From Okeania sp. SIO3B5 (lineage in GTDB: Bacteria; Cyanobacteriota; Cyanobacteriia; Cyanobacteriales; Microcoleaceae), in the NCBI RefSeq assembly GCF_010692555.1, contig NZ_JAAHHG010000049.1, positions 1 through 38,111 of the forward strand: a stretch of DNA of 38,111 bases. The letters run 5' to 3'. Of this stretch, positions 3,898 through 35,074 are shown one piece after another. Numbering within the stretch: position 1 is the stretch's first letter; each line of letters opens with the position of its first letter. A model generated the notes under the pieces. The model saw only the letters and a program-made list of their open reading frames with translations, had not been told where the DNA came from and did no database searches. Position numbers and translations under genes: made by a program.

Positions 3898-4131
3898 TTC
3901 CTACTTATTTATTCTTCCTTCTACTATATTCCTTTAAGTTTAGGTATTTATGAATAAAATCAAAACTATTTTTTATCAAAATTTTGATAATTATTAAAGT
4001 TTTAATAAGTAGGTAGAGATAAATAAATGTTTCTGTTTGTCGTGCTGTGCAAAAAAAAAATGAAGAATCTTAAAATGAAGTCATAAGGCAGTTTTCAGCT
4101 TAATATTTAATGTTTTGAATTTCTATCGCTA

Positions 4132-10488: not shown

Positions 10489-10695
10489 ATGAATAAAAAA
10501 CCTGATTTGAAAACTATGACTTATCAAGAGTTAAAAAGTTATGTTTTATCTCATCGAGATGATGATGAGGCTTTTTATGCTTATGTTGATAAAGTAAATG
10601 AAAGGAAAGATAGAGTAGTTTATCCGCCTTGAAAATCATTAGAAGATTTGGATAAATATCCCGAATTTATTGAAAAAATGCGTCATACGCAATAA
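10489..10695 (+). pseudogene. DUF6887-like small gene with an in-frame TGA
   Basis: The frame MNKKPDLKTMTYQELKSYVL and SHRDDDEAFYAYVDKV resembles DUF6887 proteins of cyanobacteria. It is broken by TGA at 10630-10632 (codon 48, after VVYPP) and then continues in frame as KSLEDLDKYPEFIEKMRHTQ to TAA at 10693-10695. With one readable codon in place of TGA it would be a normal 68-residue protein, so this looks like a single nonsense mutation. Its partner upstream is also broken, so the pair is likely dead. The last codons run into the first unit of the 75-bp array. Confidence 0.65.
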
Positions 10696-12530
10696 AAGGA
10701 AATTCTCACTCTCCATCTCTGAAGTTATGGTGCTTCAGACAATGAATTAATTACTGCTCTATACCTAATAGAAGGAAATTCTCACTACCCATCTCTGAAG
10801 TTACAGTGCTTCAGACAATGAATAATTATTGCTCTATACCTAATAAAAGGAAATCCTCACTACCCATCTCTGAAGTTACGGTGCTTCAGACAATGAATAA
10901 TTATTGCTCTATACCTAATAAAAGGAAATCCTCACTACCCATCTCTGAAGTTACGGTGCTTCAGACAATGAATAATTATTGCTCTATACCTAATAAAAGG
11001 AAATCCTCACTACCCATCTCTGAAGTTACGGTGCTTCAGACAATGAATAATTATTGCTCTATACCTAATAGAAGGAAAATTTCACTACCCATCTCTGAAG
11101 TTACGGTGCTTCAGAAAATGAATAATTATTGCTCTATACCTAATAGAAGGAAAATTTCACTACCCATCTCTGAAGTTACGGTGCTTCAGAAAATGAATTA
11201 ATTACTGCTCTATCAGCAATAAAAGGAAATCCTCACTCTCCATCTCTGAAGTTACGGTGCTTCAGAAAATGAATTAATTACTGCTCCATACACAATAAAA
11301 GGAAATCCTCACTCTCCATCTCTGAAGTTACGGTGCTTCAGAAAATGAATTAATTACTGCTCCATACACAATAAAAGGAAATCCTCACTCTCCATCTCTG
11401 AAGTTACGGTGCTTCAGAAAATGAATTAATTACTGCTCCATACACAATAAAAGGAAATCCTCACTCTCCATCTCTGAAGTTACGGTGCTTCAGGAAATGA
11501 ATTAATTACTGCTCCATACCCAATAAAAGGAAATCCTCACTCTCCATCTCTGAAGTTACGGTGCTTCAGACAATGAATAATTATTGCTCTATACCTAATA
11601 GAAGGAAATTCTCACTACCCATCTCTGAAGTTACGGTGCTTCAGGAAATGAATTAATTATTGCTCTATACCTAATAGAAGGAAATTTTCACTATCCATCT
11701 CTGAAGTTATGGTGCTTCAGACAATGAATTGATTATTGCTCTATACGCAATAGAAGGAAATTCTCACTACCCATCTCTGAAGTTACGGTGCTTCAGGAAA
11801 TGAATTAATTATTGCTCTATACCTAAATAGAAGGAAATTCTCACTACCCATCTCTGAAGTTACGGTGCTTCAGACAATGAATAATTATTGCTCTATACCT
11901 AATAGAAGGAAATTCTCACTACCCATCTCTGAAGTTACGGTGCTTCAGACAATGAATAATTATTGCTCTATACTCAATAGAAGGAAATTTTCACTACCCA
12001 TCTCTGAAGTTACGGTGCTTCAGGAAATGAATTAATTATTGCTCTATACCTAATAGAAGGAAATTCTCACTACCCATCTCTGAAGTTACGGTGCTTCAGG
12101 AAATGAATTAATTATTGCTCTATACCTAATAGAAGGAAATTTTCACTATCCATCTCTGAAGTTACGGTGCTTCAGACAATGAATAATTATTGCTCTATAC
12201 TCAATAGAAGGAAATTTTCACTATCCATCTCTGAAGTTACGGTGCTTCAGACAATGAATAATTATTGCTCTATACTCAATAGAAGGAAATTTTCACTATC
12301 CATCTCTGAAGTTATGGTGCTTCAGCAAATGAATTGATTATTGCTCTATACGCAATAGAAGGAAATTTTCACTATCCATCTCTGAAGTTATGGTGCTTCA
12401 GACAATGAATTGATTATTGCTCTATACCTAATAGAAGGAAATTTTCACTATCCATCTCTGAAGTTACGGTGCTTCAGACAATGAATTAATTATTGCTCTA
12501 TAAGCAATAGAAGCAATAGAAGGAAAATTT
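10692..12530 (+). repeat. 24-copy tandem array, unit about 75-76 bp
   Basis: Each unit reads roughly GGAAATTYTCACTAYCCATC, then TCTGAAGTTACGGTGCTTCA, then GACAATGAATAATTATTGC and a TATACCTAATAGAA link. I count 24 copies of the CTGAAG...CTTCAG core. Each core can fold into a hairpin with stem CTGAAG/CTTCAG and loop TTACGGTG (occasionally TTATGGTG). Local subtypes are homogenised: CTCTCC units at about 11220-11540 and ATCC units at about 12130-12480. The array lies between urtC and urtB, inside the urt series. No spacers, so not CRISPR. Confidence 0.95.
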
Positions 12531-17902: not shown

Positions 17903-18265
17903 ATGCACAAGAACCAACTAATAATTATTTTTTTATCAATAATTTTATTAGTCTCTGTACCACTGAATTTCCTATTATTTTATTTTGCTAAAAAATATTA
18001 TTTACTATTAAATTATCATAAACTAGACCCATTCGGTATCAATTATTATCCTCTTAATGTTAATCAAAATCAGACTCTAAATTCTTCTCAAAAGAATGTT
18101 GTATTTTTTGGAGATTCTCGTGTTTTAACTTGGGTTCCACCAACAGATTTTGATAATTTTATTTTTTTGAATCAGGGAATTAGCGGTCAAACCACAGTAC
18201 AAGTTTTAGGGCGTTTCAATCAACATATCAAACCTTTATCGCCGGATGCGGTCAGCTATTCCTAG
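17903..18265 (+). pseudogene. Truncated SGNH hydrolase paralogue
   Basis: 120 residues closely related to the intact gene at 18550: the same N-terminal anchor, block I VVFFGDSRVLTWVPP and block II GISGQTTVQVLGRFNQH. The similarity stops at KPLSPDA (near 18249), just before the expected GVND block; the last residues VSYS come from inserted repeat sequence with family 1 MITE text (CTGCGCAAACAGC). Lacking blocks III and V, it cannot be an active hydrolase. It arose as one half of a tandem duplication. Confidence 0.85.
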
Positions 18266-18549: not shown

Positions 18550-19299
18550 ATGAATAAAACCAAAATAATAATTATCTGTTTATCAATAATTATATTAGTT
18601 TCACTACGGCTTAACTTCCTCTTTTTTAACAGAAGCAGAAAATTTTATTTACAATTAAATTCCCTGCAATTAAATCCACTTGCCATAAATTATTATCCTG
18701 TCGATCCTAATCCTGAAGAGACTGGAAATTTCCAACAAAAGAATATAATTTTTTTTGGAGACTCTCGTGCCCGTGGTTGGAATTCACCTAAAGGTTTTGA
18801 TGATTTTAATTTTGTTAATCGGGGAATTTCTGGGCAAACTACAGCGCAAGTTTTAGGAAGATTGAATCAACATCTAAAACCTTTATCTGCGGATATTGTG
18901 ATAGTTCAAGTTGGTGTCAATGATTTATACAGAATTCCAATATTTCCTGAGAATAAAGAGATAATTATTTCTGAGTGTAAATCAAATATCAAAGAAATTG
19001 TCAGGCAATCTCGTCAGCTTGGTGCAGTTGTTATTCTGACAACAATTTTTCCCATTGCTGAAGTGCCACTTGAGAGAAAATTTTTTTGGTCGCCGGATGT
19101 AGAGTTAGCTATTAAGGAAGTGGATGATTTTATTTATTCTTTGGAAAACAAGGATGTGATAATTTTCGATACAAAAGCGATTTTGGCAAATGAACAAGGA
19201 AAAGTTAGGGAAGAATATAGTAGAGATTTTCTTCATCTTAATCGGGCAGGATATAAAGCATTGAATGAAAAATTAATGCCTATTTTACAAGAGTTATAG
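18550..19299 (+). CDS. SGNH/GDSL-family hydrolase, membrane-anchored
   Basis: 249 residues. A hydrophobic anchor at about 4-24 (IIIICLSIIILVSLRLNFLF) puts the catalytic domain outside the cytoplasmic membrane. Block I NIIFFGDSRARGWNSP (Ser nucleophile, near residue 68), block II NRGISGQTTAQVLGRL (Gly), block III VIVQVGVNDLY (Asn), block V SRDFLHLNRAGYKAL (Asp and His). All four catalytic blocks are present. Such enzymes are esterases or acylhydrolases; the substrate cannot be predicted. A truncated paralogue lies directly upstream. Start at 18550 fits the paralogue's N-terminus; a GAGGAA lies 15 nt upstream. Confidence 0.85.
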   Translation: MNKTKIIIICLSIIILVSLRLNFLFFNRSRKFYLQLNSLQLNPLAINYYPVDPNPEETGNFQQKNIIFFGDSRARGWNSPKGFDDFNFVNRGISGQTTAQVLGRLNQHLKPLSADIVIVQVGVNDLYRIPIFPENKEIIISECKSNIKEIVRQSRQLGAVVILTTIFPIAEVPLERKFFWSPDVELAIKEVDDFIYSLENKDVIIFDTKAILANEQGKVREEYSRDFLHLNRAGYKALNEKLMPILQEL

Positions 19300-21096: not shown

Positions 21097-24000
21097 CTAA
21101 ATTCTGAATTCTAAATTCTCAATTATTCCTTCTGCTTCTAGAGCGATCGCCTGCAATTTATCCAAGGTTTTTTGATTAACTGACTGCCATAAACCTCGTT
21201 GATTTGCTTCTAATAATCTTTCTGCCATATCCCGTAATGCCCAAGGATTTTTTGCTTGAATAAATGATTGTACATTCTCATCAAAAATATAAGCTTCAGC
21301 TACACCTTGATACATAAAATCTTCGACACATTTTGCTGTAGCATCATAGGCGAATAAATAATCTATTGTGGCTGCCATTTCAAAGGCTCCTTTATAACCA
21401 TGACGCATTACTCCAGCTATCCATTTAGGATTAACAACTCTGGAACGATAAACCCTAGCAATTTGTTCTTTTAATTGTCGAACTTTAGGATTTTCTGGCA
21501 TAGAATTATCGCCAAAATAAGTATCAGGATTTTTGCCTGTTAAAGCACGAATTGCTACTGTCATTCCTCCCTGGAATTGATAATAATCATCAGAGTCTAA
21601 TAAATCATGTTCTCTATTGTCTTGATTATGCAAAACTATTTGCATTTGTTGGAGACGTTGGGAAAATGCTTCGGGAGAATTTATCGCTCTAGCTTCCTGG
21701 TTATAACTATTATTAATCCCTGTATAAGCATAGCTACTCCAATTAATATAAGCTCTGGCTAAATCTTGGTCATCTTGCCAATTTTGAGATTCGATTAAAC
21801 CCTGTAAACCCGCACCATAAGCTCCAGGTTTAGAACCAAATATTCTATATTGAGAACGTGCTTTTGCCTGAATTTCAGTTAACCCTAATTCTTGCCAATA
21901 TTTGACTTCTTTTTTGACTTGAGCAGCTAAAGGATTTTCTGTTGGAGACTCATCTAAATTAGCCACAGCAATAACAGCTTGGTCGAATAAATCGATAATA
22001 TTAGGAAAAGCATCTCGAAAGAAACCAGAAATTCTTAAAGTTACATCCACACGGGGTCTTCCTAATATTGAAACTGGCAAAATTTCAAAGTCGATAACTC
22101 TTCGAGAAGGTCTATCCCAAACAGGTTTTACTCCTAATAAAGCAAGTGCTTCAGCAATATCATCTCCACCAGTTCGCATGGTAGAAGTTCCCCATACTGA
22201 TAACCCTAAAGTTTGAGGATATTCACCATTTTCTTGAGTGTATCTTTCAATTAAATTTTCTGCTGCTAATTGCCCTATTCTCCAAGCAGTTTCTGTAGGA
22301 ATGGCGCGAATATCTACAGAGTAAAAATTCCGACCTGTGGGTAAAACATCTGGTCTACCTCTTGTAGGAGCTCCAGATGAACCACTGGGGATATATTTGC
22401 CATCTAATCCTATTAATAAATTGGTAATTTCTTGGTTAGTTTTTTGCAGAGAAGGTAAAAGTTTTTGACGAATCCATTCTAATTCTTTATTTGTCTGTGG
22501 GAAGGGAGAGTCGATCGGATTTTGATTAATTAAATTTTCCACTAAATTAGCTGCTTTTTCTTCCAGTAACTCCACAGCATCACCCAAGGTACGACAAGAT
22601 TTTCCATCTATAACTAAGCTCTGATTAATAATTGTAGAAAAGTTATCTGTGAGAGGGTTAAAATCTAAACCTAAATCTTCAGCTAAAGCGCGAGTTAAAC
22701 CCAAACGAGTAGTACTAGGATGACGAGCGATCGCTATAATTAAATCTCGTAGTTGTTGACCTTGAGGACATTGCCCAAATATATGTAAACCATCGCGAAT
22801 TTGTGCTTCTTTTAATTCGCAAAGATAACCATCTATATTAGTAATTAGTTTAGAAAATTTAGTATTTTCATCGTTTGTGGAATTAATCCGTACATCCGTG
22901 GCAAAATCCGTGTCTGCCTCCTCAAATTCTGAAAAATCAGTAGAATTAATCCGTACATCTGTGGCAAAATCCTTGTTTGCTGAGTCTTTTTCGGAATAGC
23001 AGGAGTCGGAAGTTACCTCTTCTGTTTCTTCTGAAAAATTAGTAGAATTAATCGGTACATCTGTGGCAAAATCCTTGTTTGCTGAGTCTTTTTCGGAATA
23101 GCAGGAGTCGGAAGTTACCTCTTCTGTTTCTTCTGAAAAATTAGTAGAATTAATCGGTACATCTGTGGCAAAATCCTTGTTTGCTGAGTCTTTTTCGGAA
23201 TAGCAGAAGTCGGAAGTTACCTCTTCTGTTTCTTCTGAAAAATCAGTAGAATTAATCCGTACATCTGTGGCAAAATCCTTGTTTTCTGAGTCTTTTTCGG
23301 AATAGCAGAAGTCGGAAGTTACCTCTTCTATTTCTTCTGAAAAATCAGTAGAATTAATCGGTATATCCGAGGCAAAATCCTTGTTTGCTGAGTCTTTTTC
23401 GGAATAGCAGAAGTCGGAAGTTACCTCTTCTATTTCTTCTGAAAAATCAGTAGAATTAATCCGTATATCCGAGGCAAAATCCTTGTTTGCTGAGTCTTTT
23501 TCGGAATAGCAGAAGTCGGAAGTTACCTCTTCTATTTCTTCTGAAAAATCAGTAGAATTAATCCGTATATCCGAGGCAAAATCCTTGTTTGCTGAGTCTT
23601 TTTCGGAATAGCAGAAGTCGGAAGTTACCTCTTCTGTTTCTTCTGAAAAATCAGTAGAATTAATCCGTACATCTGTGGCAAAATCCTTGTTTGCTGAGTC
23701 TTTTTCGGAATAGCAGGAGTCGGAAGTTACCTCTTCTATTTCTTCTGAAAAATTAGTAGAATTAGATTCAGGAAAAGATAGAGGAATAATAGTAGAATTA
23801 ATCCCTGCATCTGTGGCAAAATCTGTGTCTTGCCATCCTTCATTTGATAAATCCTTATCTAAACCTTCTTTTTCTATCAAATTAACTATGCGCTCCCTAA
23901 TCACAGATAACCGAGAAGGGTCTAAATTTTGTGCCTCATAATATTCATCAATTAAAGTTTCTAATTCCTGCAAAGCTCCATAAATTTCAGCACGAGTCAT

Positions 24001-26223
24001 AGGTGGAGTTAAATGGTCAATAATTACAGCTTGAGACCTCCGTTTAGCTTGAGAACCTTCTCCTGGATCATTAACAATAAATGGATAAAAATGTGGCAAA
24101 GCACCGAGAGCTATTTCTGGAAAACATTCTTGAGATAAACCGACACTTTTACCAGGCAACCATTCTAAATTTCCATGTTTTCCCACATGAATAATTGCAT
24201 CTATTTTAAATTTTTCTCTCAACCAATAATAAAAAGCTAAATAATCAGGAGTTGGTTCTAAATCTGGAGCATGATAATTTAAACTGGGGTCAATATCGTA
24301 ACCCCGCGAAGGTTGAATACCTACAAAAATATTTCCTAACTGAATTCCTGGAATTGGAAAATTCTCAATTTCTTTTACTTCATTATCTTTCTGAAATTCT
24401 GAAAAATCACTAGAAAAATCTTGGGAAAAAGATAGAGGAACTATAGTGGAATTAATCCGTACATCCGTGGCAAAATCCGTGTGTGCCGTGGCAAAATCCG
24501 TGTGTGCCGTGGCAAAATCCCTGTCTGCGACTGTGTGAAAATCTCCATCATTTTCTTTCTGAAACTCTGAAAAATCACTAGAAAAAGATTTAAAAAAAGA
24601 TGGTGAAAATATAGTGGAATGAATCCGTACATCTGTGGCAAAATCCTTGTCTGGCACCCATCTCTGAATAATTTTTTCCCTTACAACTTCTGGCAAACTA
24701 GCAAAATATGTTTCAAATTCTGCTAAGGATAAAGACTGGAAAACAGGACGTAATTCACGACTTTCCAAATCATTTGTTACTCCAGAAGTCAGACATTTAA
24801 TTAACTCATCCCCCGTTGCCGGAATACTTTCCAAATAATAACCAGCTCCTTCTAAAGCTTGAAGAATTTCTACACAACTAGCAGGAGTATCTAACCCAAC
24901 TCCATTAGCAAGACGACCGTCACGATTAGGATAATTTGCTAATATTAATGCGATGCGACGTTGAGATACTGGAGTTTGTCGTAACTTTATCCAATTAGCA
25001 GCCAATTCTGACACAAATTCAATCCTATCTTGAACCGGAAAATAACTCACTACATCTGTTTCTAAATCGGAATTCCAAGTTTGAACTGCCTTAAAAGAAA
25101 TTGCCCGACTAATAATATTTCCATCTACTTCTGGTAGGGCAATATTCATCGCCACATCCCGTGGCGAAAGACCTTGAAATTGACTTTCCCACTGCTCAAA
25201 ATTTCCACCACTAAAAATTACTTGTAAAACTGGAATGTCTAAATTTTTCCCATTTCTTAACAAGGGAGGAAAAGACAAATTTTCTAATTCTGAATCTTGA
25301 TTATCTTTTTCTTTTGGGTTTAATACCCCGCCGTCTAAACAGTGTTGAGAATTCTTTTTCCTTCTTCCTTCTTCCTTCTTCCTTCTTCCTTCTTCCTTCT
25401 TCCTTCTTCCTTCTTCAGTCACAACAGAGACAGCAAAACTGGTTGTGTTTAACAATAATTGAATTGCTTCAGCATTTTCAGGTTGAAAATATGCCAGTAT
25501 TTCTCCCTGTACTTCTACATCTCTAGGAGAAGAAACAAAGACTGGCACAGGTTCTAAATTTTGTTCTATTAAAGCTTGGCAAAGAGCATCTATAGGAGCA
25601 ACATTTCCAGACAAATAATGAGCGCGATAGAATAATATTCCAACTTTTGCCTTTGTACTTTGTTCTTCTTTTTGCAAAGGATAAATTCCGACTCGTGGCA
25701 CTGGTATAGGTAAGGCAAAATCATAACTTTTTTTCATACAAATATTAGCGATAAACTTGAGACCATTAACAAAATTATCTACCCCACCTTCTATTAAATA
25801 TTGCCAGAATTGATTAACTAGAGAAATTGAAACATTAGAATGACTAATTAAATCTGGATCTGGGCGGTCATCTCCAGGAATTACTATTAGTTTTACCCCT
25901 TCTTTTTCTATCACTTCTAGCAAGACTTCCAAACCATAAGACCAATAGGATCGCCCCCCTAAAAGTCGAACAATAATTACTTTTGCCTTAGATAAAATAT
26001 CATCAGCATAAGTATCAATAGTTAACTGTTGTTGTAAGTGAAGTAAATTAGCAACTCTCACTGATGGAAAATCTGAAGGTAGTTTATTAACTGCTGCTGC
26101 TAATGTTTGAATATCCGTATCTGCTGCAGTTAAAAAGATTATTGGTGCGGGAGTTTGTTCGATAAAAATTACCCCTTCTGCTTGAGGGTTCCAACCACCA
26201 GGAGTAGCTGCTATTCGGTGCAT
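21097..26223 (-). CDS. cobN: Cobaltochelatase subunit CobN, enlarged by in-frame repeats
   Basis: Large subunit of the ATP-dependent cobalt (or related metal) chelatase for corrinoid synthesis; CobN/ChlH superfamily. 1708 residues, against about 1250-1300 usual. The N-terminus MHRIAATPGGWNPQAEGV and core motifs HVGKHGNLEWLPGK (near 684), IQPSRGYDIDPSLNYHAPDL, VWGTSTMRTGGDDIAEAL and FGSKPGAYGAGLQGLI are conserved. Three insertions explain the excess. About 282-323 is a GGAAGAA heptamer run (EEGRRKK x3) plus a degenerate tail. About 524-617 is FATDVRINST/FATAHTD text. About 800-1118 carries eight 34-residue repeats (CYSEKDSANKDFA). All lie between conserved blocks and keep frame. The last residues NLEFRI come from AATTCTGAATTCTAA repeat text next to a MITE. 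Activity with such loops is plausible but untested. Confidence 0.9.
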   Translation of the reverse strand: MHRIAATPGGWNPQAEGVIFIEQTPAPIIFLTAADTDIQTLAAAVNKLPSDFPSVRVANLLHLQQQLTIDTYADDILSKAKVIIVRLLGGRSYWSYGLEVLLEVIEKEGVKLIVIPGDDRPDPDLISHSNVSISLVNQFWQYLIEGGVDNFVNGLKFIANICMKKSYDFALPIPVPRVGIYPLQKEEQSTKAKVGILFYRAHYLSGNVAPIDALCQALIEQNLEPVPVFVSSPRDVEVQGEILAYFQPENAEAIQLLLNTTSFAVSVVTEEGRRKKEEGRRKKEEGRRKKNSQHCLDGGVLNPKEKDNQDSELENLSFPPLLRNGKNLDIPVLQVIFSGGNFEQWESQFQGLSPRDVAMNIALPEVDGNIISRAISFKAVQTWNSDLETDVVSYFPVQDRIEFVSELAANWIKLRQTPVSQRRIALILANYPNRDGRLANGVGLDTPASCVEILQALEGAGYYLESIPATGDELIKCLTSGVTNDLESRELRPVFQSLSLAEFETYFASLPEVVREKIIQRWVPDKDFATDVRIHSTIFSPSFFKSFSSDFSEFQKENDGDFHTVADRDFATAHTDFATAHTDFATDVRINSTIVPLSFSQDFSSDFSEFQKDNEVKEIENFPIPGIQLGNIFVGIQPSRGYDIDPSLNYHAPDLEPTPDYLAFYYWLREKFKIDAIIHVGKHGNLEWLPGKSVGLSQECFPEIALGALPHFYPFIVNDPGEGSQAKRRSQAVIIDHLTPPMTRAEIYGALQELETLIDEYYEAQNLDPSRLSVIRERIVNLIEKEGLDKDLSNEGWQDTDFATDAGINSTIIPLSFPESNSTNFSEEIEEVTSDSCYSEKDSANKDFATDVRINSTDFSEETEEVTSDFCYSEKDSANKDFASDIRINSTDFSEEIEEVTSDFCYSEKDSANKDFASDIRINSTDFSEEIEEVTSDFCYSEKDSANKDFASDIPINSTDFSEEIEEVTSDFCYSEKDSENKDFATDVRINSTDFSEETEEVTSDFCYSEKDSANKDFATDVPINSTNFSEETEEVTSDSCYSEKDSANKDFATDVPINSTNFSEETEEVTSDSCYSEKDSANKDFATDVRINSTDFSEFEEADTDFATDVRINSTNDENTKFSKLITNIDGYLCELKEAQIRDGLHIFGQCPQGQQLRDLIIAIARHPSTTRLGLTRALAEDLGLDFNPLTDNFSTIINQSLVIDGKSCRTLGDAVELLEEKAANLVENLINQNPIDSPFPQTNKELEWIRQKLLPSLQKTNQEITNLLIGLDGKYIPSGSSGAPTRGRPDVLPTGRNFYSVDIRAIPTETAWRIGQLAAENLIERYTQENGEYPQTLGLSVWGTSTMRTGGDDIAEALALLGVKPVWDRPSRRVIDFEILPVSILGRPRVDVTLRISGFFRDAFPNIIDLFDQAVIAVANLDESPTENPLAAQVKKEVKYWQELGLTEIQAKARSQYRIFGSKPGAYGAGLQGLIESQNWQDDQDLARAYINWSSYAYTGINNSYNQEARAINSPEAFSQRLQQMQIVLHNQDNREHDLLDSDDYYQFQGGMTVAIRALTGKNPDTYFGDNSMPENPKVRQLKEQIARVYRSRVVNPKWIAGVMRHGYKGAFEMAATIDYLFAYDATAKCVEDFMYQGVAEAYIFDENVQSFIQAKNPWALRDMAERLLEANQRGLWQSVNQKTLDKLQAIALEAEGIIENLEFRI
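22867..23800 (-). repeat. In-frame 102-bp tandem repeats inside cobN
   Basis: Eight units of 102 bp (34 codons). Each contains TCTGAAAAATCAGTAGAATT, AATCCGTACATCTGTGGCAA, AATCCTTGTTTGCTGAGTC and TCGGAAGTTACCTCTTCT on the plus strand. Neighbouring units differ mainly at ATCTGTG/ATCCGAG and CCGT/CGGT. A shorter relative of the AATCCGTACATCCGTGGCAA core lies at about 24445-24520 and 24620-24650 in the same gene. The period is a multiple of three and no stop is present in frame. Confidence 0.95.
25354..25412 (-). repeat. GGAAGAA heptamer run inside cobN
   Basis: About eight heptamers read in frame as EEGRRKK repeated three times (three heptamers equal 21 nt or 7 residues). The same heptamer flanks the cobN and urtB starts. 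Confidence 0.9.
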
Positions 26224-27294: not shown

Positions 27295-29245
27295 GCCACA
27301 ATAAAAAAATTGCCATTTCTAGTCTCTTTCCTCACCCAAGTCAGAAAAAATTCCTACCTTTTCCCTTCTACTATTTATCTGAGAGGAAAAAATTTGCTTG
27401 CTGGAGTTCTGTGTCTAGGAGAAAGTTAGAGAAAATTTCTATCTTTTCGACTCTAGTGTTTACCTGAGAGGGAAAAAATTGCCACTTTTAGTCTCTTCCT
27501 TTGCCCAAGTCGGAAAAATTTCGAGCTTTTACCCTCTACTATTTATTTGAGAGGAAAAAATTTACCATTTCTAGTCTCTTCCCTCCCCCAAGTCAGAAAA
27601 AATTTCGAGCTTTTACCCTCTACTATTTACTGGAGAGGAAAAAATTTGCTTGCTGGAGTTCTGTGTCTAGGAGAAAGTTAGAGAAAATTTCTATCTTTTC
27701 GACTCTAGTGTTTACCTGAGAGGGAAAAATTTACCACTTTTAGTCTCTTCCTTTGCCCAAGTCGGAAAAATTTCGAGCTTTTACCCTCTACTATTTACTG
27801 GAGAGGAAAAAATTTGCTTGCTGGAGTTCTGTGTCTAGGAGAAAGTTAGAGAAAATTTCTATCTTTTCGACCTTAGTTTTTATCTGAAAGGAAAAATTTG
27901 CTTGCTGGAGTTCTGTGTCTAGGAGAAAGTTAGAGAAAATTTCTATCTTTTCGACTCTAGTGTTTACCTGAGAGGGAAAAATTTACCACTTCTAGTCTCT
28001 CCCTTTGCCCAAGTCAGAAAAATTTCGAGCTTTTACCCTCTACTATTTACTGGAGAGGAAAAAATTTGCTTCCTTGAGTTCTGTGTCTAGGAGAAAGTTA
28101 GAGAAAATTTCTATCTTTTCGACTCTAGTGTTTACCTGAGAGGGAAAAATTTACCACTTCTAGTCTCTTCCCTCACCAAAGTCGGAAAAATTTCGAGCTT
28201 TTACCCTCTACTATTTATCTGAAAGGAAAAAATTTGCTTCCTGGAGTTCTGTATCTAGGAGAAAGTTAGAGAAAATTTCTATCTTTTCGACTCTAGTGTT
28301 TACCTGAGAGGGAAAAATTTACCACTTTTAGTCTCTTCCTTTGTCCAAGTCGGAAAAATTGCTAGCTTTTACCCGCTACTATTTATTTGAGAGGAAAAAA
28401 TTTACCATTTCTAGTCTCTCCCTTTACCAAAGTCAGAAAAAATTTCTAGCTTTTACCCTCTAGTATTTACTGGAGAGGAAAAAATTTGCTTCCTTGAGTT
28501 CTTTCTCTAGGAGAAAGTTAGAGAAAATTTCTATCTTTTCGACTCTAGTGTTTACCTGAGAGGGAAAAATTTACCACTTTTAGTCTCTTCCCTCACCAAA
28601 GTCGGAAAAATTTCTAGCTTTTACCCGCTACTATTTATTTGAGAGGAAAAAATTTACCATTTCTAGTCTCTCCCTTTACCAAAGTCAGAAAAAATTTCTA
28701 GCTTTTACCCTCTAGTATTTACTGGAGAGGAAAAAATTTGCTTCCTTGAGTTCTTTCTCTAGGAGAAAGTTAGAGAAAATTTCTATCTTTTCGACTCTAG
28801 TGTTTACCTGAGAGGGAAAAATTTACCACTTTTAGTCTCTTCCCTCACCAAAGTCGGAAAAATTTCTAGCTTTTACCCTCTACTATTTATTTGAGAGGAA
28901 AAAATTGCCACTTCTAGTCTCTCCCTTTACCAAAGTCAGAAAAAATTTCTAGCTTTTACCCTCTAGTATTTACTGGAGAGGAAAAAATTTGCTTCCTTGA
29001 GTTCTGTGTCTAGGAGAAAGTTAGAGAAAATTTCTATCTTTTCGACTCTAGTGTTTATCTGAGAGGGAAAAATTGCCATTTTTAGTCTCTTCCCTCACCA
29101 AAGTCGGAAAAATTTCTAGCTTTTCCCCTCTACTATTTATTTGAGAGGAAAAAATTTACCACTTCTAGTCTCTTCCCTTTGCCCAAGTCAGAAAAATTTC
29201 TAGCTTTTCCCTTCTACTATTTATTTGACAGGAAAAAAATTACGA
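27295..29245 (+). repeat. About 23-unit tandem array of 84-bp units, two subfamilies
   Basis: Type A units read ACCACTTYTAGTCTCTTCCC, TCACCAAAGTCGGAAAAATT, TCTAGCTTTTACCCTCTACT and ATTTATTTGAGAGGAAAAAA. Type B units read GCTTGCTGGAGTTCTGTGTC, TAGGAGAAAGTTAGAGAAAA, TTTCTATCTTTTCGACTCTA and GTGTTTACCTGAGAGGG. The two types align over their length. Type B units start near 27391, 27647, 27814, 27898, 28067, 28236, 28486, 28738 and 28988. The spacings are about 84, 168 or 252 bp, giving a higher-order pattern of AB and AAB. The array fills the gap between two convergent genes. Confidence 0.95.
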
Positions 29246-29260
29246 TATCAATGATTTTCC

Positions 29261-30457
29261 TTATTTCTTTGAACTAGAGATATGTGGTCTTGAAATCTTT
29301 CCCTGAAATATTTTTTCCAAAGCTTCATTTCTGATATTTTCTGACTCCTTTCCCCACTTCCATAAACTTTCATAGAAAAAGAACGATACTCCCGCAAAAT
29401 TTCTATTCCGCACTGCTTCTACTTGTTCTTCAATTGTCGTTATCGGAGTAGAATTATTTCTCAAACCAGTCAAAATTCCAATAGCAAAAGGAATATGCTT
29501 TCTAGCTAATTTAACCTCTGTTCGTTCCAACTCATTAATAAAACGTTTCATATCTGAACGATAAACCTGTAAAACAATTTCATCAATCAACTCTTCTCTT
29601 TCCCAAGTAAACCAGTCTTGCAAATAAGCAGGTAAAGCAAAATGGAAAGGATTAGGAGATACAGAAATAATACAGTCTGGTTTTATCGCTTTTATTTCTT
29701 CAGAAACCCGCTCCATAAAGTTATTAATTTTATCCGCTCGCCAACGCACCCAAAAAGTTTCTTGATAATTTTTAGAAGGGGATAAACCAGGAAGTTCTTT
29801 TTCATATAATTTAACTGTAAAATCGTCATAACCAAATTCGGCAGGTAAGCCAAAATGGTCATCAAATTGAATGCCATCTATATCGTATTTAGTAACAATT
29901 TCCAGGATTAAATCCAAAATAAATTGTTGTACTTCTGGATGAAAAGGATTAAGCCAAACTCTAGCATCTTCTCCTTCCATTTTAATAGTAGTTCCATTCA
30001 GTCGTTTAGTTAACCAATTAGGATGTAATTTTGCTAATTCTGAATCTGCTGGTGCCATGAAACCAAATTCAAACCAAGGAATAATTGTTAAGCCTTTTTG
30101 ATGCCCTTCGGTAATAATTTCTTGTAAAAAATCTCGCCCTTGTAAACCAGGAGTTGGGTCTAAAGATTTGCCAAATACTTGTTGAGCTACTTGACTAGGA
30201 TATAGAGTATAACCACCTTGCCAAACAGTAGGATAGAGTGTGTTGAAGTTTAGTTTTGCTAAACGATTTATCGCTGATTTTGTGCCTGAACTAGAAAATA
30301 AAACATCACTATCAATATTAGTTATCCAAACGCCACGAATTTCTGTTTGTTGTGTGGTTTTGCTAATTTGATTAGAGGCTAATACTAATGTAATTGTGGT
30401 GAAAATTGCAATTAGTGTTAGGGCGATGGTTCGGTAAATTGATTTTGATTTAACCAT
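29261..30457 (-). CDS. GHL10-type glycosyl hydrolase (DUF187 family), secreted
   Basis: 398 residues. N-terminal signal or anchor at about 8-27 (YRTIALTLIAIFTTITLVLA). The catalytic TIM-barrel domain begins EIRGVWITNIDSDVLFS (about 39), with LNFNTLYPTVWQGGYTLYPS, GLTIIPWFEFGFMAPADS, RVWLNPFHPEVQQF and YDIDGIQFDDHFGLPAEFGY (near 194). These are hallmarks of the family 10-like hydrolases (PF02638) found in cyanobacteria and YngK-type proteins, which probably act on cell-wall or extracellular glycans. The C-terminal IFQGKISRPHISSSKK is short. Upstream lie seven tandem copies of its own leader and first codons. No Shine-Dalgarno precedes the ATG. Confidence 0.85.
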   Translation of the reverse strand: MVKSKSIYRTIALTLIAIFTTITLVLASNQISKTTQQTEIRGVWITNIDSDVLFSSSGTKSAINRLAKLNFNTLYPTVWQGGYTLYPSQVAQQVFGKSLDPTPGLQGRDFLQEIITEGHQKGLTIIPWFEFGFMAPADSELAKLHPNWLTKRLNGTTIKMEGEDARVWLNPFHPEVQQFILDLILEIVTKYDIDGIQFDDHFGLPAEFGYDDFTVKLYEKELPGLSPSKNYQETFWVRWRADKINNFMERVSEEIKAIKPDCIISVSPNPFHFALPAYLQDWFTWEREELIDEIVLQVYRSDMKRFINELERTEVKLARKHIPFAIGILTGLRNNSTPITTIEEQVEAVRNRNFAGVSFFFYESLWKWGKESENIRNEALEKIFQGKISRPHISSSKK

Positions 30458-31700
30458 GAAATTTTGATAGATATTGAAATTATTTGTGATTTAGCGATCG
30501 CTCAGATTATAAGATTAAATTATCTAAATTTTTCGCGATAATTGAAATTAGGATTATGTCGATAGTTCGGCAAATTGATGTTGATTTAATCATAAGATTT
30601 TGAGAGAGGTTAAATTTGTTGATTGTTGATAAATTGCTAATATCCATAAATTTATAATTGAGATAAATAGAAATAGAGATATAGTCAAAAAGCTAAAATT
30701 CCGTTCTTGAAATTTTAGTGAGAGTTGAAATTAGTATTATGGGAATAATTCGGGAAATTGATTGAGATTTACACATGAGATTTTGAGAGAGGTTAAATTT
30801 GTTGATTGTTGATAAATTGCTAATATCCATAAATTTATAATTGAGGCAAATATTAATAGCACTCTCGTGAAAGACCTCAAATTCAATCCTGGAAATTTAG
30901 TGAGAGTTGAAATTAGTATTATGGGAATAATTCGAGAAATTGATTAAGATTTAGACATGAGATTTTGAGAGAGGTTAAATTTGTTGATTAGTGAAGCGAT
31001 CGCCTATATCCATAAATTGATAATTTAGGCAAATAGAAACAGGGATATAGTCAAAAAGCTAAAATTCCGTTCTTGAAATTTTAGTGAGAGTTGAAATTAG
31101 TATTATGGGAATAATTCGGGAAATTGATTGAGATTTACACATCAAATTTTCAGAGAGGTTCAATTTATTGATTGTTGATAAATTGCTAATATTCATAAAT
31201 TGATAATTTAGGCAAATAGAAACAGGGATATAGTCAAAAAGCTAAAATTCTGTTCTTGAAATTTTAGTGAGAGTTGAAATTAGTATTATGGGAATAATTC
31301 GGGAAATTGATTGAGATTTACACATCAAATTTTCAGAGAGGTTCAATTGATTGATTGTTGATAAATTGCTAATATCCATAAATTGATAATTTAGGCAAAT
31401 AGAAATAGGGATATAGTCAAAAAGCTAAAATTCTGTTCTTGAAATTTTAGTGAGAGTTGAAATTAGTATTATGGGAATAATTCGGGAAATTGATTGAGAT
31501 TTACACATCAAATTTTCAGAGAGGTTCAATTGATTGATTGTTGATAAATTGCTAATATCTATAGGTTGATAATTGAGGCAAATATCAATAACACTCTTGT
31601 GAAAAACCTCACACTCAATTCTTTAAACTTTGATAAGAATAAAAATTAGTATTATAGGAATAACTCGGGAAATTGACTGAGATTTGACCATGATATTTTG
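30458..31700 (-). repeat. Seven 183-bp tandem copies of the glycosyl hydrolase leader and first codons
   Basis: Minus-strand ATG (or equivalent) positions are 30593, 30776, 30958, 31142, 31325, 31508 and 31691, spaced 182-184 bp; the true gene starts at 30457. Most copies begin a micro-frame that parallels the gene's MVKSKSIYRTIALTLI: MIKSTSICRTIDIILI (30593), MCKSQSISRIIPIILI (30776, 31142, 31325, 31508) and MVKSQSISRVIPIILI (31691). The copy at 30958 stops at codon 5. The shared upstream text on the minus strand includes AACCTCTCTCAAAATCTC and TTTAGCTTTTTGACTATATC. Frames end after 22-28 codons. Confidence 0.9.
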
Positions 31701-31866
31701 AGAAAAATTAAATTTGTTGATGTTTGAGTTATCGCTAATATCTATAGATTGATAATTGAGCTAAATATAAATAGCTAAAATTAAGGATTAGTATTTGATA
31801 TTATACTTCTTTCTCGCAGTTGTCAATTCTAAATAAAAGTTCTAAATCTGGTTTAATCTCGGATGA

Positions 31867-31872
31867 TATAAT
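31867..31872 (+). promoter_or_regulatory. Putative -10 box of the DUF262 operon
   Basis: A consensus TATAAT lies 28 nt before the first ATG. No good -35 is visible at the expected distance. It is the best promoter candidate in the 200 bp upstream. Confidence 0.4.
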
Positions 31873-31899
31873 AAAGATTAAAATAAAAAAGTCAAATTT

Positions 31900-33021
31900 A
31901 TGGTCAGTCAAAAAAACTCAAATAAATATCAAGCAGAAGAAAACGGGGATGAGGAAGTTTATGAAAAAGATAATTTAACTTACGACCCTGAGAAAATTAA
32001 TATTATTACTAGGGAACCTACAATTGAACAATTAGTAAGAAGAATAAATGAAAAAGCTCTTGATTTAGCTCCAGATTTTCAGCGTCATTCTGATATATGG
32101 AATGATGAGGTTAAAAGTCGATTGATTGAATCAATTATTATTAGAATTCCTTTACCAGCTTTTTATATTGATGGTACTGATGAAGATAACTGGTTAGTAG
32201 TAGATGGTTTGCAAAGACTTTCAGCTTTAAAAAAATTCGTTGGTAATAATTTACAGTTAACAGGTTTAGAATATCTGGATGAACTTAATGGTAAAACCTA
32301 TCAAGAATTAGACCGTAAATATCAACGTCGTATTGAAGAAACCCAGGTTACAGTTTATCTAATTGCACCGGGTACACCAGCTAAAGTTAAGTACAATATT
32401 TTTAAACGTATTAATACAGCAGGAGAACGTTTAACTCCTCAAGAAATACGTCATGCTCTTAATCCTGGTAAAGTCCTAAAATTATTAGTTGACCTCGCTA
32501 AATCTCCAAAATTTACTGATGTTATTCAACTTGGTGAATCACGAATCAAACGTATGGATGATCGAGAATTTGTACTAGGTGCTTTAGCAGTGATGCTAAC
32601 ATCTGATTCTTATAAAGATTATGCAAAGTATGGCAGAGAAGAATTTTTAGATAATGCCATGAAAAAAATTAATGATTTATCTGATTCTAAAATCCAACAA
32701 CTTGGTAAGAAATTCAAAAGTACTATGATTGTTTGTCAAGAAATATTTGGCGATGAAGCTTTTCGGAAACCTAAAAAACCGAAACAAAGGAAATTCCCAG
32801 TCAATAAAGCTTTGTTTGAAACCTGGTCATTTCATATTAGTCAGCTTAATAGTCAAGAAATTCAAAAACTTAAAATGCGGAAGCAAGACTTAATAAATCA
32901 ATTTGCCAAATATGTAGACAAAGACAAAGAATTTTTCAAGTCTATATCTCAAGCTCAAGATAAGATAGAATATCGTTTTGAAACTATTGAAAAAATAATC
33001 AAGGAAGTTATAAATGATTAG
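31900..33021 (+). CDS. DUF262 domain protein (ParB/Srx-like), first gene of a putative defence operon
   Basis: 373 residues. DFQRHSDIWNDEVKSRLIES at 59-78 and WLVVDGLQRLSALKKF at 98-113 are the two hallmark blocks of DUF262. The usual DGQQR is DGLQR here. FKRINTAGERLTPQEIRHAL near 168 is the third block. The family belongs to the ParB/sulfiredoxin superfamily and forms the NTP-sensing or hydrolysing half of GmrSD-type restriction enzymes. There is no DUF1524 HNH nuclease domain in the C-terminal third, so any effector must be supplied by the neighbours. The stop overlaps the start of the next gene by 8 nt, indicating translational coupling. A defence role is inferred. Confidence 0.85.
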   Translation: MVSQKNSNKYQAEENGDEEVYEKDNLTYDPEKINIITREPTIEQLVRRINEKALDLAPDFQRHSDIWNDEVKSRLIESIIIRIPLPAFYIDGTDEDNWLVVDGLQRLSALKKFVGNNLQLTGLEYLDELNGKTYQELDRKYQRRIEETQVTVYLIAPGTPAKVKYNIFKRINTAGERLTPQEIRHALNPGKVLKLLVDLAKSPKFTDVIQLGESRIKRMDDREFVLGALAVMLTSDSYKDYAKYGREEFLDNAMKKINDLSDSKIQQLGKKFKSTMIVCQEIFGDEAFRKPKKPKQRKFPVNKALFETWSFHISQLNSQEIQKLKMRKQDLINQFAKYVDKDKEFFKSISQAQDKIEYRFETIEKIIKEVIND

Positions 33022-34123
33022 CTCAGTACATCTAAAAAACTTTAAACCTTTTGCCAATCAATTTCTATCTTTTAAACCATTAACTTTACTTTCTGGTCTA
33101 AATAGCACTGGCAAATCTTCTGTCTTACAAGCACTACTGTTAATGCGTCAATCTTATCAACAAGGACTATTAGAAAATCAAGGTTTAGCCCTTAACGGCG
33201 ATTTAGTCTGTATTGGTACTGCTCAAGATGCACTATTTGAAGGGGCAAAAGATGATTTTATTAGTTTTAAAATTGTTTGGCGAAATGATAAACAAGGAAT
33301 CTGGAATTTCTCCTGCGACCGAGAAAAAGATGTTCTAAATCTTGCCTCACCACCAGTTACTTCTGATATCTATAAACTTAGTCTTTTTAATCAAAAATTC
33401 CATTATCTTCAAGCTGAACGTTTAGGTCCGCGTTTATTTTCTCAAATGTCAGATTTCCAAGTACAAAAACTCCAACAATTCGGAGCAAAAGGTGAATATA
33501 CAGCACACTTTTTGTTTATTAATGAAAATCAAACCATACCAAATCGTAGCTTAGGACATCCACAAGAAGAATCCCTAATTTTAAGAGAGCAAGTTGAAGC
33601 TTGGATGGGAGAAATTAGTCCTGGTACACGCCTAAAAATAAACCCTAAACAAGATATAGATTTAATCAGTCTTCAATATTCTTATGGAGATAGTAATCCT
33701 TATCGTTCTACTAATGTCGGATTTGGAATTAGCTACACTTTACCAATTATTGTTGCAGTTCTTTCATCTCCTCCAGGCAGTTTAATTCTAATAGAAAATC
33801 CGGAAGCACATCTTCATCCAAAAGGTCAAGCAAAAATGGGAGAATTATTAGCTCTTGCTGCTAGTTGTGGAGTACAAATTGTAGTTGAAACTCATAGCGA
33901 CCATGTTTTAAACGGAATTAGATTAACAGTTTATAGAGGAAAACTTGACCCAGAAAAAGTTCAATTACACTATTTTGACCGCCGAAAACAAGGAACAGAA
34001 TTTATCACTGAAGTAATATCGCCCCAGATCGACCGGAACGGACGAATAGATAAATGGCCAGAAGGTTTTTTTGATGAATGGGATAATAGTTTAGAAGCAC
34101 TTTTAGAACCCAGGGAAGAGTAA
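33014..34123 (+). CDS. AAA ATPase with DUF3696, second gene of the operon
   Basis: 369 residues, an SMC/OLD-like ABC ATPase. N-terminal KNFKPFANQFLSFKPLTLL, Walker A GLNSTGKSS at 28-36, Q-loop region near 75. Walker B is ILIENPEAHLHPKGQ near 258 and the His switch is VVETHSDHVLNGIRLTV near 292. The end IDRNGRIDKWPEGFFDEWDN is the DUF3696 signature. Such ATPases act with partner effectors in several phage-defence systems. Lacks a TOPRIM domain. It overlaps the DUF262 gene by 8 nt and precedes the third gene by 3 nt. Confidence 0.9.
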   Translation: MISSVHLKNFKPFANQFLSFKPLTLLSGLNSTGKSSVLQALLLMRQSYQQGLLENQGLALNGDLVCIGTAQDALFEGAKDDFISFKIVWRNDKQGIWNFSCDREKDVLNLASPPVTSDIYKLSLFNQKFHYLQAERLGPRLFSQMSDFQVQKLQQFGAKGEYTAHFLFINENQTIPNRSLGHPQEESLILREQVEAWMGEISPGTRLKINPKQDIDLISLQYSYGDSNPYRSTNVGFGISYTLPIIVAVLSSPPGSLILIENPEAHLHPKGQAKMGELLALAASCGVQIVVETHSDHVLNGIRLTVYRGKLDPEKVQLHYFDRRKQGTEFITEVISPQIDRNGRIDKWPEGFFDEWDNSLEALLEPREE

Positions 34124-34126
34124 AAA

Positions 34127-35074
34127 ATGGATTTAGAAATGGTGCTGAATGAACTTTCCCTAGAGACTCCTGTTGCTGATATTTCCACAGCACGAAAATT
34201 AATGTCAGAATTAATTCAAACTTTAATCCAAGCAAAGAAATTAGGAGTAAAAATACTTCGGACTGACAGAGACCTTAACTATATAGAACTTACTCCTAAT
34301 TATCCTATAGCAAGTTGGCGCAACGACCGGGAAGTAGATAGAGAGGAGCGTAGATTTTTTCGTTCTCTTATTACTAAAGTTCCTCTTTGGAGTGATGTTA
34401 CTGAAGAGATTAAAAGTAAATTTGACTTGTCTGAAGTTTGGCATCAAGGAAAATTAGCAGAAGGGCTTCGTTTAGCTTTAATTAGTGATTCTCTTGCGGT
34501 TAGTTTATTATCCGAACCCCAATGGAATACAGATTTTTTGGAACTTCAGGTAACAGAAATAGACAAAAATGAACGGTTAACTGACTACTCGGAAAAAATT
34601 GTTCATGCTAGTCGAAGTAGTCATGTAAAACAACATACTGAATGGATTAAAAACCGCATCGAAAATAAATTATTTGATAGGCAAGTTGATGGAGAAACAC
34701 TATGGAAAAATAGACAAGAATTTTTTCCGAATTTAATCTTCTGTGAACAAGTAGAGCAACAGTTACAAAACCTAAACACTGGCAACAACATTTTGCAACA
34801 AGTAAAGAAACGATTATTTGAACTAGAACAATACTGTAAAACTTGGAAAACCGGAGCTTTTAATAAAAATCTTCTCCCTAACAAAACTACCCCAGAAAGT
34901 GACTCAAGAATTCAACAGTGTAGACAACAATTAACTATTAAATGTCCTGGTGGAAAAGAACGTCTTTTTAGTTGGCATCTCCGCATGACTCCTGGTGCTT
35001 GGCGACTTTATTTTTCTGAAGAATTAGGACCTGGAAAAATCATCATTGGTTATATAGGTCTTAAGCTAAAATAG
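34127..35074 (+). CDS. Unrecognised third protein of the DUF262-DUF3696 operon
   Basis: 315 residues, mostly helical and charged in the first two thirds (MDLEMVLNELSLETPVADIS, WIKNRIENKLFDRQVDGETL). There is no signal or membrane segment. A central region ILQQVKKRLFELEQYCKTWK precedes a compact C-terminal block with alternating strands: RLFSWHLRMTPGAWRLYFSE and GKIIIGYIGLKLK. That block is reminiscent of RelE/HigB-type small toxin folds (Arg in HLR, then strand, then Lys near the end), a weak impression only. I do not recognise a family. Start 3 nt after the ATPase stop with GGGAAGAG upstream. Its stop TAG lies within the target duplication of a MITE. Confidence 0.75.
   Translation: MDLEMVLNELSLETPVADISTARKLMSELIQTLIQAKKLGVKILRTDRDLNYIELTPNYPIASWRNDREVDREERRFFRSLITKVPLWSDVTEEIKSKFDLSEVWHQGKLAEGLRLALISDSLAVSLLSEPQWNTDFLELQVTEIDKNERLTDYSEKIVHASRSSHVKQHTEWIKNRIENKLFDRQVDGETLWKNRQEFFPNLIFCEQVEQQLQNLNTGNNILQQVKKRLFELEQYCKTWKTGAFNKNLLPNKTTPESDSRIQQCRQQLTIKCPGGKERLFSWHLRMTPGAWRLYFSEELGPGKIIIGYIGLKLK

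Follow-up and report, generated by a model that had tools for sequence, protein, structure and literature searches.

Tandem copies of a gene's own leader and start upstream of a GHL10 glycosyl hydrolase-like gene in Okeania sp. SIO3B5 and related cyanobacteria

Seven tandem units of about 183 bp were found on the minus strand upstream of a GHL10 glycosyl hydrolase-like gene of the marine cyanobacterium Okeania sp. SIO3B5, within the stretch of 38,111 nucleotides analyzed here (the window). Every unit was homologous to the leader of the GHL10 gene plus about 22 codons, with 70–72% identity. We regard ordinary tandem duplication of a gene end inside the leader, largely neutral and growing and shrinking in copy number, as the probable explanation, although our confidence in it is only moderately high.

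TRF reported a period of 183, 6.7 copies, and 87% matches at 30542–31775; together with the positions of the unit start codons (Table 1), this confirmed the tandem array described in the original prediction. Local alignment of the gene's 5' end with each of the units gave scores of 92–103, while the maximum for 60 dinucleotide-shuffled targets was 51; thus, the proposed kinship between the units and the gene start exceeds chance. These alignments spanned about −60 to +57/+70, and the leader and the first 66–70 bases of the gene matched the units. The spacing from the ATG of unit 7 to the gene start was shorter than the other spacings, the gene's own unit being about 47 bp shorter. Unit DNA had seven matches in the window's own genome, all on one contig and at this locus only (E up to 0.001). 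No Rfam family matched the window at gathering score.

As had been claimed, most copies open short frames: a frame of 22–28 codons was present in six of the seven units, and four units encoded an identical peptide, the four copies being identical across the 60 bases listed. The equality of 183 bp with 61 codons, also pointed out earlier, has no visible meaning: the frames stop inside the unit, and in relatives with a single copy, five of the seven copies start 176–186 bases before the gene start, while the other two lie further away (271 in G057 and near 300 in G060).

Table 1. Features of the GHL10 locus in the window (unit boundaries are approximate).
Feature	Coordinates	Strand	Description
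GHL10 glycosyl hydrolase-like gene	29261..30457	-	Pfam PF02638, E 1.3e-98; start at 30457
Unit 7	30542..30677	-	ATG 30593, 28-codon frame; 136 to gene start
Unit 6	30678..30860	-	ATG 30776, 27-codon frame, 27-residue peptide the same as that of unit 2
Unit 5	30861..31043	-	ATG 30958, frame broken after 4 codons
Unit 4	31044..31226	-	ATG 31142, 27-codon frame, 27-residue peptide the same as that of unit 2
Unit 3	31227..31409	-	ATG 31325, 27-codon frame, 27-residue peptide the same as that of unit 2
Unit 2	31410..31592	-	ATG 31508, 27-codon frame
Unit 1 (outermost)	31593..31775	-	ATG 31691, 22-codon frame
Promoter-like element	31798..31826	-	TTGACA, 17 nt, TAATAT; single, conserved, upstream of all units

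The GHL10 gene itself was an intact open frame of 398 aa at the end of the array, with an N-terminus that looked signal-peptide-like when judged by eye. The array consists of adjacent direct repeats of the leader and start of the same gene and thus belongs to 5'-end partial duplications. A search of plasmids was uninformative: it returned 18 Pseudomonas records, each with a single match of 51 bases, and in 15 of them the match fell on a gene annotated as a family 10 glycosyl hydrolase. An inverted repeat, GAGC-N2..6-GCTC, preceded the start in 7 of the 12 gene units compared among genomes (see below) and in 4 of the 24 copies, mostly around GCGATCGC, which we take to be the cyanobacterial HIP1 repeat. 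In those seven gene units it took the form GAGC-N4-GCTC about 46 bases before the start (e.g., L073, L074, and L078, just before position 4001); the gene leaders of G054 and G060 kept the arms with a centre unlike the GATC type, and the window's GHL10 leader carries GCGATCGC at that place without the full inverted repeat.

Orthologues of the GHL10 gene were compared among 12 genomes: that of the window (G000) and 11 relatives of the Okeania/Trichodesmium clade, including one Microcoleaceae record. In 11 of them, one to seven copies of the gene's own 5' end were located upstream. Multiplied arrays of seven, five, and three copies were carried by G000, G056, and G004, respectively; G002 had two copies, and the other seven copy-bearing genomes had just one (G001, G007, G008, G054, G057 with an additional fragment, G059, and G060, where the copy is in two pieces). 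No copy was found upstream of the gene in G003, where the best nhmmer match had an E value of 0.28. These counts bear out the predicted amplification of the leader, the copies being those of the gene's own leader and start, as well as the variation of copy number among relatives, from 0 to 7.

In a tree of the 36 units (174 columns; 10 of the 33 inner branches open), the 12 gene units formed one group (support 100/98) apart from the 24 copies, the copy nearest to this group being G002_c1. The copies grouped partly by lineage: those of G054, G059, and G060 were placed together, and the five copies of G056 fell in two places. Because gene units and copies separate on the tree, the duplication looks ancestral, and this topology is consistent with a single old duplication and later, separate multiplication in the lineages. 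Upstream regions of outgroups (10 loci, nhmmer, E up to 1) gave no match, a search without power since the outgroup genes' own leaders were also unmatched.

In all 11 copy-bearing genomes, a block reading TTGACAACTnnnAnAAAGAAGTATAnTAT preceded the outermost copy, and every genome that retained the block also had at least one copy. At its 24 fixed positions, eight genomes showed no mismatch, two showed one, and G054 showed three. The block was not found in G003 (best match with 8 mismatches), where the upstream region has a different ORF. As the block consensus was built from these very sequences, divergence is the independent measure: the mean pairwise difference was 0.03 in the −35 box and 0.12 across the block, against 0.43 and 0.47 in the flanks, the flank values being inflated by the ungapped comparison. 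The distance from the block to the outermost ATG was 127–147 bases in 9 of the 11 genomes and 318 in G054, while in G060 the start was not reliably placed. Within the window's array, the next best match to the block had 9 mismatches. Since the duplicated stretch starts downstream of the block, the promoter was not copied, and the array is probably part of a transcribed leader of about 1.3 kb in this genome, as judged from the position of the block. On the far side, at 31900–35074 of the window, divergent GmrSD_N and AAA/DUF3696 genes and a third ORF are located; a similar-looking first divergent ORF (by eye, first 40 residues) adjoins GHL10 in 7 of the 11 relatives.

We suggest the following course of events. 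The stretch from just past the GHL10 promoter to beyond codon 22 would have been duplicated in tandem in an ancestor of the Okeania/Trichodesmium clade, so that the coding sequence remained complete, with a leader and start of its own, and the promoter remained outside the duplication. The additional leader-and-start copies would thus be situated between the promoter and the gene, where slippage or unequal recombination would have multiplied them in some lineages. A single transcript from the conserved promoter would carry all units, and ribosomes may initiate on several of them, giving short signal-peptide-like peptides. The effect of the units on the enzyme is presumably small, so that most sequence change would be near neutral, and the micro-frames would be mainly a mechanical consequence of start-site copying.

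Whether the copied starts are kept by selection was analyzed by divergence, codon-position, and simulation comparisons. Over 45 pairs of 10 of the 12 genomes (without G003 and G060), the mean divergence of the outermost-copy frame was 0.26, that of the four-fold sites of the gene 0.24, and that of the first 20 gene codons 0.13; pairs with G059 covered 39 frame bases instead of 63, and the outermost copies of amplified arrays are not necessarily strict orthologues. Differences by codon position among 22 copies were flat (4.1, 5.1, and 5.3 per pair), a weak test because the real signal peptide likewise showed no bias. A start followed by at least 21 open codons was kept in 19 of the 24 copies and broken in the other five; in this tally G060_c1, whose start had been wrongly anchored, was scored as not intact and G059_c1, with an insertion in its frame, as intact, while both were excluded from the codon-position test and from the simulations relied on (22 of the 24 copies).

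The simulations relied on had branch lengths refitted on the frame or flank alone. Under the fitted GTR models, 18 of the 22 frames were intact against 4.6–7.3 expected (P 0.005–0.019) and ATG was kept in 21 of 22 (P 0.019–0.035), while the absence of stops alone gave P 0.06–0.26. A simpler model with frame-refitted branch lengths expected 5.4–6.1 intact frames (P 0.015–0.027), with P 0.05–0.06 for start retention alone and 0.10–0.19 for stop absence alone. An initial simulation with whole-unit branch lengths had given P 0.0025–0.015; the refitted runs were preferred. Real genes in the same simulations gave similar or lower P values. Across 23 of the 24 copies (without G060_c1), no variation was seen in the AAA at positions −7 to −5, in the T at −2, or in the AT of the ATG, and the genes showed much the same pattern. 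The fitted model assigns A a low rate of change, and gene conversion may have had a share both in the invariant bases and in the open frames. A 39-codon version of the frame with a similar tail occurred in G001, G007, and the five G056 copies. Taken as sequence comparisons, these results are suggestive, and only suggestive, of copied start sites being kept by selection. On the idea of decoy leader peptides, the evidence points both ways: the frames are kept somewhat above simulated chance, but they change at about the synonymous rate, and five of the 24 are broken.

The upstream copies might instead be functional micro-ORFs, i.e., translated, signal-peptide-like leader peptides of 21–39 codons that tune GHL10 translation or mRNA stability, with copy number as a dial; we consider this possible but rather doubtful. 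The number of intact frames exceeded that in the neutral simulations (P 0.005–0.027 over both models), the 39-codon version recurs with its similar tail, and the position of the conserved block makes it likely that the copies belong to the 5' UTR. Against the neutral reading also stand the lack of any block-bearing genome without a copy, the invariant bases around the ATG, the recurrence of copied starts at three further loci in four or more of five Okeania genomes, and a 3' excess over the control that was not significant. However, stop absence alone was not significant and start retention was borderline; the substitution rate equals that of four-fold sites, codon-position bias was lacking in a low-power test, gene conversion among copies would likewise hold frames open, and the ATG was lost in 12 of the 35 copies of a comparable TPR-gene array (see below). 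A broader form of the same proposal appears to us less likely still, namely, that start-copy arrays act in Okeania and Trichodesmium as translated decoy or relay starts whose micro-peptides and copy number set the amount of enzyme, with this architecture recurring at other genes.

The array might also serve mainly as a recombination substrate, through which GHL10 expression would vary from cell to cell by leader length. Copy numbers of 0–7 among the 12 genomes and the near-identical copies in the window speak for this reading, but seven of the 11 copy-bearing genomes have just a single, diverged copy, which would be a poor substrate for recombination, and one assembly per genome does not reveal variation within populations; we hold it to be improbable. 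What stands of the earlier suggestion is that the variation in copy number is compatible with recombination or slippage between the repeats. Amplification of the promoter, with a transcription start of its own in each unit and thus many promoters for the gene, is very improbable. The units are AT-rich and may contain weak sub-threshold sites, but a scan of 30300–32000 gave two sites facing the gene, both upstream of the outermost unit, and no gene-facing site within the units at the scan threshold; the second site (31895–31868), with the same score (10 of 12), lies beside the start of the divergent gene. On both strands of this region, four promoter-like sites were found against a shuffle mean of 11.8 (sd 3.6). 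These are sequence scans; together with the conserved block, which is single and outside the array in all 11 genomes, they speak against the promoter part of the original prediction. An assembly artefact is hardly credible: the genome is a draft of 789 contigs, but diagnostic substitutions distinguish the copies, and the same arrangement, with different copy numbers, appears in independently assembled genomes of other species. Largely neutral duplication of the gene end remains the reading that we prefer.

Copies of gene ends were surveyed for ORFs of at least 150 aa in 272 kb of G000 (with the window), 809 kb of G004 (where the GHL10 locus, L071, was added deliberately), and 400 kb of G017, the sole control genome, from another genus of the family. 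A 5' copy was counted when a match of at least 40 bits extended from the start or before it to at least +30 and did not lie inside another ORF; the counts may include some spurious ORFs or tandem paralogues. Upstream copies of the own start were found for 4 of 106 genes in G000, 13 of 396 in G004, and 1 of 246 in G017; downstream copies of the own end, for 5 of 106, 5 of 396, and 1 of 248, respectively. In the Okeania samples, 5' copies (17/502) and 3' copies (10/502) did not differ significantly (Fisher p 0.24). Compared with the control, 5' copies were more frequent in Okeania (17/502 against 1/246, p 0.010; 15/500 without the GHL10 locus, p 0.028), while the difference for 3' copies was not significant (10/502 against 1/248, p 0.11).

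Three further loci of G004 were followed across five Okeania genomes, and start-region copies recurred in at least four of the five. Copies at a first TPR gene were found in all five genomes (those of G000 on a short contig that lacks the gene), and those of a 298-aa gene in four; a second TPR gene had several matches per genome, in which gene paralogy may be mixed. Upstream of the first TPR gene, 12 of the 35 copies with at least 70% identity lacked ATG, which argues that the copied starts are unneeded at that gene. This own-start-region array (L184 in G004; L185–L190) has a period of about 139–140 bp; its AGGAG-containing sequence is mostly kept, and ATT or ACT stands in place of the missing ATG. 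The GHL10 array is a real case of an apparently broader habit of tandem copying of gene ends; unusual in it are its location, with the gene on one side and one conserved promoter-like block on the other, its apparent age, and its re-amplification.

Other repeats were also observed in these sequences. A nested tandem array with periods of 42, 168, 252, and 420 occupies 27303–29238 of the window, directly past the GHL10 stop codon, and in the G004 orthologue (L071), the 50 bases that follow the stop codon likewise matched repeatedly. At 22927–23764, a 102-bp repeat (8.2 copies, 97% matches), a multiple of three, sits within a 1708-aa CobN/Mg-chelatase-like ORF (21097–26223, minus strand). A 76-bp repeat (24 copies, 94% matches) at 10691–12513 creates a repetitive, probably spurious ORF at 10806–11201. 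At 17903–18265 and 18550–19299, a GDSL-lipase-like gene is preceded by a 120-aa frame with a start similar to that of the gene (74% over 119 bases); the frame is possibly a gene fragment.

If our interpretation is correct, tandem copying of start regions behind a fixed promoter, with persistence of the copies across genera, would be a route for the growth of bacterial leaders. The natural arrays, with 0 to 7 copies at GHL10 and 11 in one genome at another gene, offer material for measuring the cost or use of extra starts. Copied starts may also be relevant to the unusually high noncoding proportion of these genomes. According to PMC4649490, the genome of Trichodesmium, which belongs to the same clade as the array-bearing genomes, is about 40% noncoding, and about 80% of the noncoding part was reported as transcribed in laboratory studies. 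The words "tandem" and "repeat" are absent from the text of that paper, so such copies are not described there in those words; our literature search, beyond which most subscription papers lay, returned no account of gene-start copying in them or their relatives' genomes.

Among the known bacterial systems of upstream ORFs and leader peptides are attenuators. The GHL10 units resemble such systems (PMC10219788) in being short frames that probably lie within a gene's 5' UTR; they differ in copying the gene's own start, in tandem, and in having no Rfam match. A closer likeness exists to partial tandem duplication of gene ends, in which a truncated 5' copy lies beside the intact gene in variable copy number, and in the same samples 3' ends were copied at a rate not significantly different. 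Unlike that pattern, the GHL10 array is amplified up to seven-fold, is apparently ancestral to the clade, and is located between a promoter-like block and the start codon.
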